From the NCBI GenBank assembly GCA_002704225.1, contig PAFU01000048.1:23512-75925 (forward strand): 52,414 nt of DNA, written 5' to 3'. Made by a program: the position numbers and the translations under genes. The stretch is from Gammaproteobacteria bacterium. GTDB taxonomy: Bacteria > Pseudomonadota > Gammaproteobacteria > Pseudomonadales > Azotimanducaceae. Shown here in pieces: positions 9,484 through 23,438 of this stretch (position 1 is the stretch's first letter; each line of letters starts with the position of its first letter). Under the pieces are notes generated by a model. That model was not told the origin of the DNA. It searched no databases and worked only from the letters and a program-made list of their open reading frames with translations.

Positions 9484-10341
9484 TTATTTGAAATCCGCTG
9501 CGCTGTGTCGCTCGATCACCCGCGTCTCTTCGGGGCCCCACGGACGATTGACGCGGCGGCCGCGATCTACTGCCGGCCGCGCTTGAATTTGCTTCGCCCA
9601 GCGCACCACATGGGTATAGGACGCAGCGTCAATAAACTCTTCAGCACTGTAAAGATTGTTGATTGCCAGCTGACCGTACCAGGAATAGTTGGCGATATCC
9701 GCGATCGTATAATCGTCACCACACAAAAATTCGCGCTCAGCCAGCGTCCGATTCAGCACATCTAACTGACGCTTGATTTCCATCGTGAAGCGATCAATCG
9801 GGTACTGCATCTTGAACGGGGCATAGGCATAAAAGTGACCAAAGCCGCCGCCCAGATAGGGGGCACTGCCCATCTGCCAGAACAGCCACGACATACACTC
9901 GGCGCGGGCGGATGGTTCGGTTGGCAGCAAGGCACCAAATTTTTCGGCCAGATACACCATGATGGCTCCAGACTCAAACACCCGAGTAGGCGTGGGCGTG
10001 CTCAAATCCAGCAGCGCTGGAATTTTGGAATTCGGATTTATGTCAACGAAGTCGCTGCCGAACTGTTGGCCTTCCCCAATATTTATCGTGTAGGCATCGT
10101 ACTCTGCCCCGGCGTGGCCTAAATCGATGAGTTCTTCGAGCAAGGCCGTGACCTTGACCCCATTTGGCGTCGCCAACGAGTACAGCTGCAATGGGTTTTC
10201 GCCACGAGGCAGCTCTTTATCGTGAGTGGGTCCAGCGATCGGCCGATTGATGTTGGCGAAACGACCACCGCTCTCGGTATCCCAGGTCCAAACCTTGGGC
10301 GGTACGTATTCGTCGGTTGGGGTCGGCTTGTCATCACTCAT
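9484..10341 (-). CDS. yghU: YghU-type glutathione S-transferase (disulfide-bond oxidoreductase)
   Basis: A 285-residue protein matching the YghU/YfcG (Nu-class) glutathione transferase group, whose E. coli members reduce disulfides with two bound glutathiones. The long N-terminal arm before the thioredoxin fold (YVPPKVWTWD, then SGGRFANINRP) is characteristic of YghU; the thioredoxin domain begins near residue 50 with the YSLATPNGVK strand, lacks a catalytic cysteine as expected, and continues with NPNSKIPALLD and the E-S-GAI glutathione-binding segment. The all-helical C-terminal domain fills residues 130-260. The length equals the family norm. A strong AAGGAG is placed 6 bases before the ATG. 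It is followed by no obvious partner; upstream on the same strand is the sulfatase gene. Role: redox homeostasis or peroxide defence in the cytoplasm. Confidence 0.9.
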   Translation of the reverse strand: MSDDKPTPTDEYVPPKVWTWDTESGGRFANINRPIAGPTHDKELPRGENPLQLYSLATPNGVKVTALLEELIDLGHAGAEYDAYTINIGEGQQFGSDFVDINPNSKIPALLDLSTPTPTRVFESGAIMVYLAEKFGALLPTEPSARAECMSWLFWQMGSAPYLGGGFGHFYAYAPFKMQYPIDRFTMEIKRQLDVLNRTLAEREFLCGDDYTIADIANYSWYGQLAINNLYSAEEFIDAASYTHVVRWAKQIQARPAVDRGRRVNRPWGPEETRVIERHSAADFK

Positions 10342-10422
10342 AATTACTCCTTGTTATTCGCTTTATGGATCCATGGGACCCACTGCACTTCTGCCGCAGG
10401 TCAGTGTCCGTTATTCGCTGGA

Positions 10423-12000
10423 TCAAGACAATCCAGCGATACGCCCATCCCGTGTTGGCGCTCCCCGAGCAGCATCGTCAGCCGCCATCAGGGCATCCGC
10501 AAGCACCTCCATCATCTGACCCCGCGCAGGATGCTGTTGTGCGCTCAGATCTTGCATTTCGTCGGGATCCGACCGCAGGTCAAACAGCTGCTCTTCACCC
10601 TTGGCGTTTCGTGTATAGCGGTACTGTTCCGTAATCACCGTGCGCGTTTTCGCAGGTATCGGCGTGAGCTTTGCGGTGATGGTGGCGATGTCGTCCTCAA
10701 CCAGCACATGGTCGCGCACTCTGGCGTCTTCGTCGTTGAGCATGGCGGTTAAACTCTGCCCCTGAATGCCGTCATAACCCCGCAGTCTGCACAGCTCCAA
10801 GATCGTGGGGGCAATATCGATACTTGATGCCAATCCCTGCGTGCGTTGAGCTGGCATATTGGGAGCGCTAATAACCAAGGGCACTTGGAGTGTGCCGCGG
10901 TAGTGCATGAAGCCTTTTAAGAACAACCCGTGATCGCCCATCATGTCGCCGTGATCGCTGGTGAAAATCACGATCGTATTATCGCGCACCCCCAAGCTGT
11001 CGAGCTGCTCCAGTAGGCGACCGACACCATCGTCTACCATTTCGATCATGCCATATGTCGCGGCGATGGCCTGCCCCAACAACCGATCGTTACCGTAGCC
11101 GCAGGGTGCTACCCAGTCACGCTGATCGGCGGGATGCACACGTTGGAAGGCGCGCAAATGCGCTGGCGCGTGAGGCAGCGGGTCGTGTCGACTCTCGGGC
11201 AGCGGAATATCTGCAGGATCATGTCTGTCAAACCATGGCCCTGGCGGGCTGATCGGGTGGTGAGGATCTGGGAATGAACACATGGCCATCCACGGTTCGT
11301 TTGTTTCGCTGCAGGACTGAATGAATTCTTGGGTCCGCTCGGTCACAAAGCGAGTGGAGTGAAACCGTTCGTTATAGGGCGCCTCGTAAATTTGCCACCA
11401 TTCGTCGCTGCGTTTGCTACCCGGCGCCTGAGCGTCGTGTGGTGCCAGCAGTTCTTCTCGACTCGCGCCTTGGGCGAGTGCCCACTGCAAATGATGACCT
11501 GTTACCCGAGCTCCGTGGTCGATCGACAACTCGATACGCTCGAAGCCATAAAAGTCCTCAGGATCCTTGGGGAGCTTATCGAGATACCGTTCGAAGTCCT
11601 CAAAGCGATCCCAGCCGTCAGGCTGATGATCCAGTAAGGCGCCCTGCCCGCGAAAATCCACCACAGAGTTCCTGCTCATCCCATGCTGTAAATGGGACTT
11701 CCCCACAAGTGCCGTACGATACCCATCGGCACGCAGCTGGCGAACAAAGGTGTTGGCATGCCAATCGAGAGAGCGGTCGTTGAAAATCACCCCATGCGCT
11801 GTGGGCATCCGCCCGGTCAGGATCGTGGCTCGATTGGGCATACAGACAGGGTTTGCCACCCACGCATTTTCAAACACGCAACCCGATGACGCCAAACTGT
11901 CTAAGTTGGGGGTGCGTACCGTTGGGTTGCCCATAAACCCCACGTGATCGGCCCGATGCTGATCTGTCATGATCAGCAAAATGTTTGGTTTCTCGCTCAT
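10423..12000 (-). CDS. Sulfatase (formylglycine-dependent, arylsulfatase-like)
   Basis: A 525-residue sulfatase hydrolysing sulfate (or possibly phosphonate) esters. ATG 12000 is preferred to the TTG at 12012 because GAGGG lies 5 bases upstream. PNILLIMTDQHR (5-16) provides calcium-binding aspartates. The sequence C53-M-P-N-R57 followed by T-x-LTGR is the sulfatase core C-x-P-x-R, whose cysteine is oxidised to formylglycine; N replaces the more usual S at the third position after the cysteine, a common variant. The second metal site is the TSDHGDMMGDHG segment in the middle of the protein. No signal peptide is present, so action on an imported substrate is implied. A separate formylglycine-generating enzyme is needed and is not in this window. 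The organic substrate is unknown. Confidence 0.9.
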   Translation of the reverse strand: MSEKPNILLIMTDQHRADHVGFMGNPTVRTPNLDSLASSGCVFENAWVANPVCMPNRATILTGRMPTAHGVIFNDRSLDWHANTFVRQLRADGYRTALVGKSHLQHGMSRNSVVDFRGQGALLDHQPDGWDRFEDFERYLDKLPKDPEDFYGFERIELSIDHGARVTGHHLQWALAQGASREELLAPHDAQAPGSKRSDEWWQIYEAPYNERFHSTRFVTERTQEFIQSCSETNEPWMAMCSFPDPHHPISPPGPWFDRHDPADIPLPESRHDPLPHAPAHLRAFQRVHPADQRDWVAPCGYGNDRLLGQAIAATYGMIEMVDDGVGRLLEQLDSLGVRDNTIVIFTSDHGDMMGDHGLFLKGFMHYRGTLQVPLVISAPNMPAQRTQGLASSIDIAPTILELCRLRGYDGIQGQSLTAMLNDEDARVRDHVLVEDDIATITAKLTPIPAKTRTVITEQYRYTRNAKGEEQLFDLRSDPDEMQDLSAQQHPARGQMMEVLADALMAADDAARGAPTRDGRIAGLS

Positions 12001-12080
12001 AACTTCCCTCAACCGCCCTTCAATCCGTGTGAAAGAACCCTCGGCAACAGGTCAATCCTTGCGTCACCCAGGAGTTGTCG

Positions 12081-12434
12081 TTAGCCGAGAGCAAAGGTCA
12101 TGAACGACTGGCGTTGAACTCTCACCGCAAGCACATCGGCTGGCGGGCGATCTACGGCCTTGTTCAATCCTGACGGCAACCCCGCCTGAGTAATCAGCGC
12201 ATTGGCACGCGCCAATGTCACAGTAGCAGACAGGTCTTGGGTGCGAGCCGTAAGGGTTTCGCGCAACCGCTTGCCGGTCTGATTCTGATTCGCCTGTTGT
12301 ACCGCGGCCTTGGCACCGTTGAGGGCCTCGTAGGTGCCCCGAGCCAACACCGTTTTTGGCGCACCCAGCCGCGTTTGAGCACCAGAAGGGCTAGGAGGTG
12401 TCATCAAGGCGTTGGATGAAAGCGGTAAGGACAT
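12081..12434 (-). CDS. Hypothetical protein, 117 residues
   Basis: I do not recognise this protein. It is 117 residues, rich in Ala, Thr, Gln and Leu, with a low-complexity Ser/Pro N-terminus, a helical middle with basic residues and an ordered-looking end. There is no signal peptide, membrane segment or cysteine. Support for a real gene is indirect: it fills the space between two well supported minus-strand genes, and a perfect TATAAT lies 36 bases upstream of its ATG on the same strand. There is no clear Shine-Dalgarno sequence. It could be a lineage-specific small cytoplasmic protein. Confidence 0.45.
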   Translation of the reverse strand: MSLPLSSNALMTPPSPSGAQTRLGAPKTVLARGTYEALNGAKAAVQQANQNQTGKRLRETLTARTQDLSATVTLARANALITQAGLPSGLNKAVDRPPADVLAVRVQRQSFMTFALG

Positions 12435-13105: not shown

Positions 13106-14182
13106 TTATCGAACCGGCCCGAAGCCCTCCCGAAGCACGGGCTGTACCTTGGCTACAGACAACAACGATTCAACGCAATCTCGAATCGACTCGTCTAAGG
13201 GTCGAAACGTCGCGCCGGTGACCGAGCAGATTCGGTCATTGCGCAGCTCGCACTGGGCCCAGATCGCTCGCATTTCTGCTTCTCTGGCCTGAATGCGTTC
13301 TGGAAAGTTGTCCGTGACCTCGGGCGTCGCGTGTCCCAACTCAGGCAGCAGGCGGTCAATGGATGCACACACATCCTCGACGTTGCGTGTATCCGTAGAC
13401 CAAGCGATGTAGCGCTCACCATTCTGTACGTTGACATTTTCCAACAGGCGAATATGACAGTCGGCATCATCGCGGACGTCCACCGTCATCCAAGGTCGGT
13501 AAGCGCCGTTTTGGTAATAGGTGCCGAGTAGCATCATTTCAATATTGTGCTGCCAGGGCCCCATGTCTTTCTGGTGCGCCGAGAGGATCGGGCCGACGTT
13601 GTCTGCCGGACAAATACGAATGCAGTCCCAGCCGCCATGTGCCTCGGCTGCGTCCGTGAACAATCGTTCAAGTTCTACCTTGCCCATGGAATAACCTTGG
13701 CCACGCTCAGTCGTGCGTTTAGGGCTCTCCTCATCGGGATAACGGTCTTCGTAAAACACCGGTCGTCGCACCAGCTCCTGCAAATCCGCCTCGGAAATAA
13801 TCGCAGCGATACTGGATGTGACAACCACTCGATTCACCGTTCCCGAATTGTTGATGCTAGCAATCACATGTTCGCAAACGCCACGCATGTATTCTGGATC
13901 ATCGTAGGTGCTTACGTGGGAGACGTGGCAAACGCCCTGACAGCCGCTAAAGATATCGTCAAAGCACCCGGCCTGGTCAAGGTTGGCCGAATGCAAGGTC
14001 AGCCGACCCGACGCGTAGCCTGGCATCTGGCGCAGAAAATCGGTTTTGTTCGTGTCGCCGGCATCACGCACACAGGCCCTCACCCGGTAGCCCCTATCCA
14101 ACAGACCGCGGACGACCCAACCACCGATAAAGCCTGCCGCGCCGGTAACTGCCACCGTACTGCCCTTTGGAACTGGTGCCAT
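13106..14182 (-). CDS. NAD(P)-dependent extended SDR (dihydroflavonol-reductase-like)
   Basis: A 358-residue extended short-chain dehydrogenase/reductase. TGAAGFIG at 13-20 binds the cofactor pyrophosphate; the VRD motif at 38-40 is typical of NADP-preferring dihydroflavonol or cinnamoyl-CoA reductase relatives; serines at 123-124 and Y164-x3-K168 form the active site. Such bacterial enzymes reduce ketones or aldehydes or act as sterol or sugar dehydrogenases. The ATG has a good AGGGAGAG upstream. The gene is the first of a likely two-gene unit with the DUF427 gene. It faces away from the selenoprotein gene at 14399, leaving a 216-base divergent promoter region. The substrate is unknown. Confidence 0.82.
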   Translation of the reverse strand: MAPVPKGSTVAVTGAAGFIGGWVVRGLLDRGYRVRACVRDAGDTNKTDFLRQMPGYASGRLTLHSANLDQAGCFDDIFSGCQGVCHVSHVSTYDDPEYMRGVCEHVIASINNSGTVNRVVVTSSIAAIISEADLQELVRRPVFYEDRYPDEESPKRTTERGQGYSMGKVELERLFTDAAEAHGGWDCIRICPADNVGPILSAHQKDMGPWQHNIEMMLLGTYYQNGAYRPWMTVDVRDDADCHIRLLENVNVQNGERYIAWSTDTRNVEDVCASIDRLLPELGHATPEVTDNFPERIQAREAEMRAIWAQCELRNDRICSVTGATFRPLDESIRDCVESLLSVAKVQPVLREGFGPVR

Positions 14183-14337
14183 GAAATTCTCTCCCTGTTT
14201 GAAAGTTAGTTCGAATCAAGCGAACGAGTGATCGTTACCTTAGCCTATCGCCTACCGGCTCACTAGCGTCTCGGCCCCGCCCATCGCTCCATCAGCCACC
14301 CTGCGATAAGCCGTGGCATTTCGGCACCCCCTATCCT

Positions 14338-14343
14338 TATAAT
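14338..14343 (+). promoter_or_regulatory. Candidate -10 box for the selenoprotein gene
   Basis: A perfect TATAAT on the plus strand, 55 bases before the ATG at 14399, inside the 216-base divergent region. The best -35-like hexamer (TGGCAT, 14314-14319, spacer 18) is weak. Position and the lack of other signals make it the likeliest promoter, but it is unproven. Confidence 0.35.
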
Positions 14344-14398
14344 GATGACTCGCGAGTTCCATTACTGCCGTTTTCGGCGTCACGACAGGGAAAAATTG

Positions 14399-14740
14399 AT
14401 GAGTAAAAAAGTCGATTGGTATTACTTCCGAGGGGGATGAACCAGCTGTACCCGAGCATCCAAGTTTTTGGAAGCAAGTGAGATTGAGATCAGCGAAACC
14501 ATTCCGGCAAGCCGAAAATTGCAACGAGAAGATGCGGCTGCATTGCTCGCCAAGGCAAAAACCATGGTGGTTTCAAAGGGTAAGAAAGTGACCGAGTTTG
14601 CCGGCGGTAGTAAAGCGTCTGAAGAAGCGTTGGATGCCATGCTGGGCAGCACAGGGAATCTTCGGGCTCCGACCGCTTTGATTGGAAAGCACATCATCGT
14701 GGGCTTCAACGAAGACACGTACTCTGACGCGCTGAAATAG
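14399..14740 (+). CDS. ArsC-like thioredoxin-fold selenoprotein (in-frame TGA as selenocysteine)
   Basis: Reading the frame from ATG 14399 gives 113 residues if the TGA at 14438-14440 is decoded as selenocysteine. AGGGA lies about 8 bases before the ATG. The N-terminus VDWYYFRGG is followed by U14-T-S-C17, a redox motif in exactly the place where relatives of ArsC-type thioredoxin-fold proteins carry C-x2-C. The sequence after the TGA continues without interruption: VVSKGKKVTEF, GSTGNLRAPT with a cis-Pro-like P91, and VGFNEDTY near the end, all typical of that family. A small hairpin begins 18 bases after the TGA (see next entry), and selD lies 6.5 kb away. Sec forms of ArsC-like proteins have been noted in bacterial selenoproteome surveys. 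Likely role: thiol/selenol redox chemistry in the cytoplasm; arsenate as substrate is doubtful. Standard gene calling would start at TTG 14468 and lose the active site. Confidence 0.88.
14441..14475 (+). promoter_or_regulatory. Putative bacterial SECIS hairpin
   Basis: Directly after the TGA the mRNA can form a stem TCCAA (14459-14463) with TTGGA (14468-14472) closing a GTTT loop (14464-14467). The stem extends by two G-C pairs beyond one A-A mismatch (GCA before, AGC after). The loop starts with G and lies 23 bases after the TGA, within the spacing and guanine-in-the-loop rule described for bacterial SECIS elements read by SelB. An alternative weaker pairing (14435-14439 with 14457-14461) would include the TGA itself. 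Confidence 0.65.
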
Positions 14741-14750
14741 CGCAAAGCAC

Positions 14751-14778
14751 CAGTGACCGGCAGCGAGCCCGGTCACTG
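14751..14778. terminator. 10-bp perfect inverted repeat between selenoprotein and nitroreductase genes
   Basis: CAGTGACCGG (14751-14760) and CCGGTCACTG (14769-14778) pair around an 8-base loop. It lies 10 bases after the selenoprotein stop and 21 bases before the nitroreductase ATG. No T-run follows, so it may be an intercistronic mRNA-stabilising hairpin, a weak terminator or a protein-binding palindrome. Confidence 0.55.
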
Positions 14779-14799
14779 CAGAATTCAAGGTAGAGCAAT

Positions 14800-15453
14800 A
14801 TGAACGTAACCGAGGCCGTTGCATCGCGACGCTCGATCCGAGCCTTTCTTGACACCCCGGTCAGCAACACCCTGCTGCGCGAGCTACTGGAAAAGTCCGC
14901 TCGAGCACCGTCCGGTGGCAACGTACAGCCGTGGCAGGTGCAGGTAGTGAACGGTTCGCGTATGCAGGATTTTCAGGAGCATCTTGCGCAACAAGACCCC
15001 AGAGAGAAGCCCGCCTACGAAATCTACCCCAAGGACCTGCCCTCCCCGTATCGAGACAGCCGTTTCAAAGTGGGCGAGGATATGTACGGCCTATTAGGCA
15101 TCCCAAGAGAGGACAAAGCGGGGCGTTTCGCTCATCTAGCGCGTAACTTCGAGTTCTTTGGTGCCCCAGCCGCTTTTTTCTGTCTTATCGACAGAACCAT
15201 GGGCCAACCTCAGTGGTCGGATCTGGGCATGTTTTTGCAGACATTCATGCTGTTGGCTCAAGAAGCTGGCCTAGACACTTGCGCGCAAGAAGCGTGGGCT
15301 ACCCGACCCCAGGCAGTCACATCGTTTCTACAGACGCCAGACAATCTTATGCTGTTCTGTGGCATGGCCATTGGTCACCGGGACCCCAAGGCACCGGTCA
15401 ACCAGTTGGTGTCAGACCGGTCGCCGCTGGATTCTTGGGCCAAATGGGCCTAA
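14800..15453 (+). CDS. Nitroreductase-family FMN oxidoreductase (second copy)
   Basis: A 217-residue nitroreductase-fold flavoprotein. SRRSIRAFLDTPV (about 9-21) supplies the conserved arginines that hold FMN phosphate, and RAPSGGNVQPWQV (about 35-47) is the signature loop; the C-terminal half has the GLDTCAQEAWA helix seen in members close to NfsB or drug-reducing nitroreductases. It should reduce nitro-aromatics, quinones or flavins with NAD(P)H in the cytoplasm. It is distinct from the copy at 5328. It follows the selenoprotein gene by 59 bases on the same strand, separated by a strong inverted repeat, so co-transcription is possible and would suggest a shared redox role. The ATG has only a weak purine-rich region upstream. 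Confidence 0.87.
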   Translation: MNVTEAVASRRSIRAFLDTPVSNTLLRELLEKSARAPSGGNVQPWQVQVVNGSRMQDFQEHLAQQDPREKPAYEIYPKDLPSPYRDSRFKVGEDMYGLLGIPREDKAGRFAHLARNFEFFGAPAAFFCLIDRTMGQPQWSDLGMFLQTFMLLAQEAGLDTCAQEAWATRPQAVTSFLQTPDNLMLFCGMAIGHRDPKAPVNQLVSDRSPLDSWAKWA

Positions 15454-21230: not shown

Positions 21231-23438
21231 CTAGACGATAGCTCGCCTACCTCGCGGTATTAGGGTGCCAACGGCTGCCGCTGGGATACCCGCTTCATTG
21301 AGCCTCTTCAGGCAGTCGTCGGCCTGCTCTGGCGGAATACAGGCCAGCAAGCCACCAGATGTCTGTGGATCGCTGAGAAGATTCAACCGATCTGTGTCCG
21401 TCGCCGAGGGCATAATCGTAAAATCGTTGAGCGCCTGCGCGTTAGCGCGTTGAATTGAACTGCGCACGCCCTGCCGGGCCAGCTGCAGGCCACCGGTCAA
21501 TATCGGTATCTCTGCCAACCTGAGCTCAACGCCACACTGGCTGGCTCGCAGCATTTCACCCAAATGGCCAATTAACCCAAACCCAGTCACATCTGTGAGC
21601 GCCCTGACCCCGTGCCGCTGAAGAATGCTCAGCGACATCCCATTGCTGGCATTCATCGAGCTAAGACAGTTGGGAACTGAGCCGGACACATGGATACCAC
21701 GCATGGCACCGGCCAAGATAACGCCTGTACCCAGCGGCTTTGTCAGCAACAGCACATCGCCGACCTGTCCTCCTGCTTTCGTCAGCGTGACCTCACCGGG
21801 TGCACCGGTTACGGTTAACGCAATGCTTAACTCCGCGCCCTCAGCGGAATGGCCTCCTACCAAGGGTGCGCCATGGGCATTGAGCACGTCCACAGCGCCG
21901 CTGAGTAACTGGAAAAGGTCCTCTTCCATCATGTGTTCTGCCATCAAGGGCAGCGTCACCAAGGCGAGTGCTGCCGTTGGCGTCGCTCCCATGGCAAATA
22001 GATCATTCAGACTGTGATGCGCGCAAATGCGCCCCAGCAGATACGGATCGTCAATCATGGCGCGAAAACCATCCACGCTCAGCAAGGTCGAGCCTGCCCC
22101 ATGGCTCACTTGGGCCGCGTCGTCGCCAATGCCGAGGCTGACGTGATCGGCCACTTGATCCGGCAGTCGCGCCAAAACCCGGCGTAACGGGTCCGCTGCG
22201 AGCTTTGCCCCACAGCCGCCACAGCGCATCAGATCGTCTGGCAGATCCGATGCCAGCTCAGCGGTCAGATCCGGCGACACGGCGTGTTCTGGCGCAGCCA
22301 TATCAGGCAGGTCGTGGTAGCGCGCCATAAAGCGCCGATCGATCCGATCTTTCAGCCGCCACAACAGACTACCCTGCAGCGCAAAGGGCCCCTTGGTTGC
22401 GATGGCATCCGGGTCATCGACACCTCCAATGCCAATCAGCGTCAGAAACGAGCGCTGGGCCTTAAACCGCGACGCTGAACCAACTAGCGATTTGCCCTGC
22501 ACCGCCAAGGCTAGATTTTGGGCTAGCACTGGCGCCGCCCGCACCGCATAAACACCGGCTTTAGCGCGCTCTTGGCCCTGCAAGTGCGCTGCGTCACCGG
22601 CGACGAAAACACTGCCATCGCTGACACTACGTAGGTCAGCGCCCACGCTTGGGAAGCCGCTTGCGTCGCAAGTTAAACCGGAAGCTGCAAGCCATTCCGG
22701 CGCCTGCACATCCGTCACCCACAGCAAGTGGTTAACGCGTCTTTCTGAGGCGTCGTCCAACTGCAGGCGATAGTCTTCGGTGGCTCGGGCGCAGTCTGTG
22801 ACGCGCTGGGGAATGTACTCAATTCGCCTACGGTCCAGGGCCCGCTTTGTCAGCGCTTTTGCTCGCTTACTCAAACCCGGCAGAAGCTTGGGTCCAATCA
22901 ACACTATCTGGGTTTGGGGCGGCAAGCTGGACCGACACGCCATGGCCATCTCCACGCCCCCAGCACCTGCGCCTACCAGACCCAGCGTCACCGGTGTTTC
23001 ATGCCCCCCGATGGCAGACTTCAAATCGGGCCATTGAGCCAAAAACCCCGTTATCGGCTTTACGGCAATACCCGGCATACCGTTGAGATTCGGGCTGGCC
23101 CCGCAGTTTATGGATAGCAAATCGTAGTGCAGGCCCGGTCGGCCCTGCAAAAGAATCCGTTTATTCGCCGTATCCAAACCCATGACCTTGGCGCAAAGAA
23201 AACGCGCTCCCGCTGCACGGCACAATGGTTCAAGGGCGATATGAATTTCATCAAGTGCGTAGTGACCGGCGATGTATCCCGGCACCATGCCGGAGTAAGG
23301 AGCGACATCGGCATCTGAAACCAGGGTCAGACGGACTCCCGGCACGGGGTACATGGCAAAGTGTTTGAGTACCTGCACATGACTGTGCCCGCCGCCAACC
23401 AGCAACAAATCACGAACCGCAGGAGTATTCGATTGCAT
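21231..23438 (-). CDS. selD: Selenide, water dikinase fused to an FAD/NAD(P) oxidoreductase
   Basis: A 735-residue fusion. Residues 1 to about 375 form an NDH-2-like pyridine-nucleotide-disulfide oxidoreductase (LLLVGGGHSHV at 11-21, second dinucleotide motif GLVGAGAGG at 153-161, FVAGDAAHL near 278). Residues about 400-735 are SelD, which makes selenophosphate from selenide and ATP, the selenium donor for selenocysteine and for selenouridine in tRNA. The catalytic pair is C409 and K412 in CGGCGAK; it is a cysteine, not a selenocysteine, form. GIGDDAAQ and VGGH carry ATP/metal-binding residues. The fused flavoprotein may supply reduced selenium; that is inference. Downstream of the CoA-transferase gene by 21 bases. 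selA, selB and tRNA-Sec are not in the window. Confidence 0.93.
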   Translation of the reverse strand: MQSNTPAVRDLLLVGGGHSHVQVLKHFAMYPVPGVRLTLVSDADVAPYSGMVPGYIAGHYALDEIHIALEPLCRAAGARFLCAKVMGLDTANKRILLQGRPGLHYDLLSINCGASPNLNGMPGIAVKPITGFLAQWPDLKSAIGGHETPVTLGLVGAGAGGVEMAMACRSSLPPQTQIVLIGPKLLPGLSKRAKALTKRALDRRRIEYIPQRVTDCARATEDYRLQLDDASERRVNHLLWVTDVQAPEWLAASGLTCDASGFPSVGADLRSVSDGSVFVAGDAAHLQGQERAKAGVYAVRAAPVLAQNLALAVQGKSLVGSASRFKAQRSFLTLIGIGGVDDPDAIATKGPFALQGSLLWRLKDRIDRRFMARYHDLPDMAAPEHAVSPDLTAELASDLPDDLMRCGGCGAKLAADPLRRVLARLPDQVADHVSLGIGDDAAQVSHGAGSTLLSVDGFRAMIDDPYLLGRICAHHSLNDLFAMGATPTAALALVTLPLMAEHMMEEDLFQLLSGAVDVLNAHGAPLVGGHSAEGAELSIALTVTGAPGEVTLTKAGGQVGDVLLLTKPLGTGVILAGAMRGIHVSGSVPNCLSSMNASNGMSLSILQRHGVRALTDVTGFGLIGHLGEMLRASQCGVELRLAEIPILTGGLQLARQGVRSSIQRANAQALNDFTIMPSATDTDRLNLLSDPQTSGGLLACIPPEQADDCLKRLNEAGIPAAAVGTLIPRGRRAIV

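Follow-up and report, generated by a model that had tools for sequence, protein, structure and literature searches.

A probable selenoprotein gene of family NF041106, with a SECIS-type hairpin, in a gammaproteobacterial contig

Gene and reading frame

The window, i.e., the whole stretch of DNA analysed (52,414 nucleotides), carries on its forward strand a reading frame that starts at ATG 14399, meets TGA 14438-14440 as codon 14, and ends at TAG 14738-14740. The features of this frame and the other genes discussed below are as follows:

14399..14740, + strand: predicted selenoprotein gene, NF041106 (ArsC_rel_Se_1), 113 aa, Sec14-Thr-Ser-Cys17
14438..14440, + strand: in-frame TGA, inferred Sec codon, common to 127/129 related loci
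14456..14475, + strand: bacterial SECIS-type hairpin within the coding sequence; GUUU loop on a stem of 2 + 5 pairs interrupted by a 1x1 mismatch
14800..15453, + strand: nitroreductase-family gene, directly downstream (PF00881, 95.4 bits, gathering 23.5)
13106..14182, - strand: NAD-dependent epimerase/dehydratase-like gene, divergent upstream neighbour (PF01370, 52.1 bits, gathering 20.9)
21231..23438, - strand: oxidoreductase-SelD fusion, 735 aa (TIGR03169 371.4 bits, TIGR00476 255.3 bits, both over cut-off)

The read-through product is MSKKVDWYYFRGG-U-TSC..., in which UTSC forms residues 14-17. The first-pass annotation had placed the TGA in frame at the first redox position, and its coordinates are exact, with the selenocysteine as residue 14 and Cys17 three residues on. 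The spacing it gave, with the G of the loop 23 nt past the TGA, was borne out as well, and the hairpin itself starts 15 nt past the TGA. The mechanical list of open reading frames of at least 100 aa has no plus-strand entry at 14399-14740, and holds an antisense frame (14422-14745) only. The claim that conventional annotation would miss the active site is upheld in part and no further, since the family is covered by a curated NCBI model, NF041106.

Family assignment

Against the NCBIfam model NF041106, "ArsC family (seleno)protein", the read-through product scores 107.8 bits (cut-off 85) in a match spanning model positions 1-107 of 107, and the UxxC motif given for the family in PMC13188914 is present in the window protein as the TGA and Cys17. 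The protein falls under threshold with Pfam ArsC (PF03960; 14.2, gathering score 24), with TIGR01617 (Spx/MgsR; 30.8 bits, cut-off 75.05) and with the Spx model NF002459 (23.6, cut-off 123). These scores place it in the (seleno)protein family, not in ArsC or Spx proper. At E <= 1e-5, NF041106 is matched by 31/31 members of alignment A1, and TIGR01617 by 28/31.

Both the family and the selenocysteine in its UxxC motif are already known from the literature, as the first-pass annotation was right to say in calling the family known in outline. The 2026 review PMC13188914 enters NF041106 as "Arsenate reductase-like protein, UxxC", the same entry is found in PMC9312934, PMC1794560 has ArsC-like selenoproteins among those it lists, and the Global Ocean Sampling survey (PMC2398784) reports "Arsenate reductase 2, cd03032, UxxC" with 42 sequences carrying Sec and 238 homologues carrying Cys. 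The term ArsC has no match in the available text of PMC5029168, and no described function for a selenoprotein of the NF041106 type was found in the portions available of the cited literature.

In comparison with NF041106, the window protein is alike in its over-cut-off score across the whole model and in the Sec of UxxC, and no difference was found. With "Arsenate reductase 2, cd03032", as described in the available part of PMC2398784, it shares the UxxC motif and a marine setting, the latter suggested for the window's bacterial family by the titles of relatives; set together by description, the two are probably the same family. The Cys share differs, at 238 Cys versus 42 Sec in the available survey text and 1/128 Cys among the present relatives, which were picked for closeness to the Sec protein.

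Relatives and the selenocysteine position

The comparison covers 129 loci: 30 from the scan of the window's own bacterial family, a further 19, and the best 80 of 489 relatives from a scan of named genomes, for which the 31-sequence alignment A1 served as query. Some genomes enter twice, and the 129 loci amount to 108 distinct gene sequences. TGA stands at the aligned position in 30/30 homologues of the initial alignment, in 127/129 loci, and in 106/108 distinct gene sequences (the last two counts including the best 80 of 489), and the TGA loci share 46-96% protein identity with the window. The two exceptions are L082 (genome G793), which has TGT, and L085, which aligns downstream of the position only. 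The codon of Cys17 is TGC or TGT in all 128 loci covering it, and columns 14 and 17 are among the 24 invariant columns of A1. The first-pass annotation had named a lack of Cys or Sec homologues across the TGA as evidence against itself; such homologues exist, TGA being found in the loci counted above and Cys in L082.

The L082 gene (3829-4173, - strand) is a natural Cys version with the motif CPAC, in which CxxC is kept, and its genome carries selB. Elsewhere, two gene copies with one TGA each lie about 2 kb apart (G807:C152:7875-8183 and 10124-10432, - strand), and a copy in L084 (G923:C27:69-383, - strand), near a contig end and under cut-off at 79 bits, has three in-frame TGA codons, which may reflect decay or sequencing error.

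Within the window's own bacterial family, NF041106 finds a match at E <= 1e-12 in 109/206 genomes and one over cut-off in 106/206. Even samples of the class and of the phylum yielded over-cut-off matches in 1/369 and 1/398 genomes, in each case the window's own. In 108 other genomes of the class, matches at E <= 0.001 reached at most 43.2 bits and were read as other ArsC-clan proteins; 29 of these loci were fetched, and a tblastn match to the window protein (E <= 0.01) was obtained in four. There was no match in the tblastn search of plasmids, and the scan of viral contigs found no relative. Titles among the best 80 of 489 name the K189A clade, marine gamma proteobacterium HTCC2089, Pseudomonadales, Myxococcota, Acidobacteria and Deltaproteobacteria, together with one Candidatus Neomarinimicrobiota and one Candidatus Binatia. 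The nearest of these 80 is a gammaproteobacterial MAG (L102, 96% identity), and the K189A clade records stand at 90% (L104), 72% (L114) and 72% (L115).

SECIS-type hairpin

According to the available text of PMC13188914, a bSECIS has a loop of 3-9 nt with a G in the first two positions, an upper stem of 4-16 bp, a UGA-loop spacing of 16-37 nt, and an MFE <= -7.5 kcal/mol. With a loop of 4 nt (GUUU), an upper stem of 5 bp and a spacing of 23 nt, the window hairpin lies within the limits for loop, stem and spacing. The loop begins with GU, and its first G is invariant in 103/103 distinct sequences. The energies are borderline against the limit of -7.5: -7.3 kcal/mol for 30 nt round the hairpin, -8.3 for 50 nt from the UGA, and -11.1 for 59 nt. 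An Rfam search of 14000-15000 returned no SECIS and one sub-threshold sRNA match (22 bits versus 50). Hence, the check for a bacterial SECIS proposed at first pass is favourable as to loop, stem, first G and spacing, borderline as to energy, and negative as to Rfam. Folded alone, the window sequence does not outperform its shuffled versions (z 0.11, 96/200 shuffles as good), so the hairpin by itself proves nothing.

Comparison across relatives is more informative. The 128 full-length rows, which include the window and the best 80 of 489, gave 103 distinct 72-nt stretches. Counted from the outermost pair inwards, the eight pairs of the hairpin are intact in 100, 103, 38, 98, 103, 103, 103 and 86 of 103; most sequences, the window's included, have a mismatch at the third. 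For covariation, 100 sequences distinct within 45 nt were considered, giving 800 cells over the eight pairs. Pairing holds in 89.0% of these cells, versus 18-47% for versions with the 3' arm shifted by 1-3 columns. Two-sided change occurs in 5/8 pairs and 29 cells, 16 of which come from the third pair, itself unpaired in 63/100 sequences. None of 500 shuffles matched the cells paired, the two-sided pairs and cells, or the covariation score, and the number of further pair types was equalled by 204/500; given that the shuffles ignore relatedness, these counts are not a probability.

Codon choice within the hairpin, as counted in 107 distinct sequences, points the same way as the covariation, towards a SECIS. 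Ser is TCC in 98/100 and Lys is AAG in 99/99, whereas elsewhere in the 60 codons examined four conserved Lys are split about 60:40 between AAG and AAA (e.g., AAG 64, AAA 42), and the single conserved Ser uses four codons. The hairpin codons are not all frozen, as Ala uses four codons, Phe is TTT in 84 and TTC in 22, and Leu is TTG in 81 and CTG in 20. In the Cys relative L082, 4/8 hairpin positions are paired and the hairpin is not kept; the window has 7/8.

Selenocysteine machinery

The assembly (2.9 Mb in 63 contigs, with a completeness of 97.41 and a contamination of 6.65%) holds a single over-cut-off match each for SelA (517.3 bits, cut-off 267.9; C19:26085-27407) and SelB (398.6 bits, cut-off 242.25; C19:27439-29265), and a tRNA-Sec (72.4, cut-off 47; C19:32280-32368) that ARAGORN reports as tRNA-SeC tca. 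The three share one contig, which differs from that of the window, and this separation, like the fragmentation and contamination of the assembly, weighs against the selenoprotein reading. The SelD model TIGR00476 has its sole over-cut-off match of the assembly (255.3-258.3 bits, cut-off 125) in the window. The selD reported there at first pass is present as the SelD domain of the ORF at 21231-23438 (-), which joins it to a pyridine nucleotide-disulfide oxidoreductase domain. The top model for this ORF is TIGR04369, "oxidoreductase/SelD-related fusion protein" (fusion_not_SelD), at 482.4, under its cut-off of 700. Its CGGCGAK stretch holds a Cys and a Lys that we take to be the catalytic residues of SelD. 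A genome without SelA, SelB and tRNA-Sec was the other finding said beforehand to count against a selenoprotein; here all three, and SelD, are over cut-off.

In the relative L101, the tRNA-Sec (12280-12372, + strand) and an opposite-strand Coq4-domain ORF (11223-12290) overlap by 11 bases if the ORF is started at its first ATG; its true start may lie further in. Within the window's assembly there was no match to SelW-like Rdx (PF10262), and three formate-dehydrogenase-like matches are all under cut-off with no internal stop. An extra search for in-frame TGA in stretches without long ORFs gave six candidates in the window and five in L101. These include the known gene, and the others were assessed by eye alone.

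Across the 206 genomes of the bacterial family, the gene (E <= 1e-12) and selB (E <= 1e-75) occur together in 91, the gene only in 18, selB only in 70, and neither in 27. This association is weak (Fisher p 0.063), and it was counted against the selenoprotein reading. Of the 109 gene-bearing genomes, the 18 without selB at E <= 1e-75 include G925 (96% complete) and G926 (93%, 8 contigs), and none of the 18 has a match over cut-off at a looser limit. By their coordinates, the selB-like pieces in G902, G816 and G923 are read as broken selB, and the selB-like matches in the remaining 15 as belonging to different GTPases, EF-Tu for instance. The absence of selB in the 18 is likely due to incomplete assemblies.

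Fold and proposed mechanism

The AlphaFold2 model built from A1, with Cys replacing Sec, has a mean pLDDT of 89.7 and a pTM of 0.81. Residue 14 immediately precedes a helix (15-26). In the middle of the chain, helix 2 is followed by strands 55-60 and 63-68, a putative difference from Spx, before the final two strands. Three PDB chains were matched by Foldseek at E <= 0.001, all of them Spx (1.7e-04 to 8.4e-04; query TM 0.55-0.61), with ArsC-related proteins and glutaredoxins among the weaker matches. The best fold matches are Spx/ArsC-clan proteins (TIGR01617; PDB 6gho, 3gfk, 6ghb), a likeness at the level of the fold, and the window protein differs in staying below the Spx family cut-off.

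Under the proposed mechanism, SelB with Sec-tRNA-Sec would recognise the mRNA hairpin 14456-14475, and UGA 14438-14440 would then be decoded as selenocysteine. The product would be an oxidoreductase of the Spx/ArsC clan, made of one thioredoxin-fold domain. Thioredoxin-fold enzymes work with an attacking and a resolving residue; by analogy, Sec14, just before helix 1, would attack the oxidised substrate, Cys17 would resolve the intermediate as an Se-S bond, and a cellular reductant would then reduce that bond. The parts assigned to the two residues, the reaction's direction and the way the enzyme is recycled are all inferred.

Interpretation

Taken together, the gene, the position of its TGA, the SECIS and the Sec machinery indicate, by comparison, that 14399-14740 almost certainly encodes a selenoprotein of NF041106. 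A pseudogene, or a short product stopping at the TGA and perhaps followed by a downstream restart, would account for the in-frame stop, and an ATG in another frame (14437-14439) does overlap the TGA. However, the same TGA recurs in 127/129 loci (including the best 80 of 489) at 46-96% identity, the reading frame being intact before and after it, and the SECIS covaries and the assembly has the Sec machinery, which leaves this explanation hardly credible. The selenoprotein reading adds a well-supported gene and its SECIS from an uncultured gammaproteobacterial family. The selenoprotein family is widespread. The Sec residue is found in 127/128 readable relatives (including the best 80 of 489), and the model is over cut-off in 106/206 genomes of the bacterial family. 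Both the protein family and the recoding were already known, and the gene leaves knowledge of selenocysteine decoding unchanged.

As to function, a thiol/selenol oxidoreductase, i.e., an enzyme and not a regulator, is the probable reading. An Spx-like regulator, a non-enzyme whose Sec14-Cys17 pair would switch with redox state to control binding to RNA polymerase or an adaptor, is suggested by the top Foldseek match (Spx, E 1.7e-04) and by TIGR01617 matching 28/31 A1 members at E <= 1e-5. Yet the window protein itself reaches 30.8 versus 75.05 with TIGR01617 and 23.6 versus 123 with NF002459, and its query TM to the Spx chains is just 0.55-0.61; we consider such a regulator unlikely. A selenium-dependent arsenate reductase, with Sec14 attacking arsenate and Cys17 resolving, would fit the family's being named after ArsC, the ArsC-related structures among the weaker Foldseek matches, and the nearest chain by sequence, the solved putative arsenate reductase 2m46 (E 0.00084). 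Set against this are the Pfam ArsC score of 14.2 versus a gathering score of 24 and the ten window ORFs scanned against NCBIfam, in which no arsenic gene was named. The protein is probably not an arsenate reductase, and arsenate as the target of Sec14 seems a poor prospect.

Neighbouring genes

The nitroreductase-family gene starts 59 nt past the selenoprotein stop. Across 96 loci, part of them with short flanking sequence, the most frequent neighbour family reaches 21. This is the nitroreductase family, which counts the window among its 21/96 loci and lies within 900 bases in 18 of them and on the same strand in 20. When the loci, leaving out the window, are grouped by the identity of their selenoprotein to the window protein, it is present in 18/19 loci at >=68%, in 2/37 at 60-68%, and in 0/39 below. 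Being kept in the nearer relatives only, it may be plain synteny, and it is weak evidence of joint function. A more specific proposal, which we regard as a long shot, is that this subfamily would be a branch of the Spx/ArsC clan, nearly all Sec and distinguished by its own insert (a beta hairpin whose turn holds an invariant Lys60-Gly61), and would serve a flavin enzyme as its dedicated selenoredoxin, the partner in K189A-like relatives being the downstream nitroreductase-family protein. The epimerase/dehydratase-like cluster is present in 14/96 loci.
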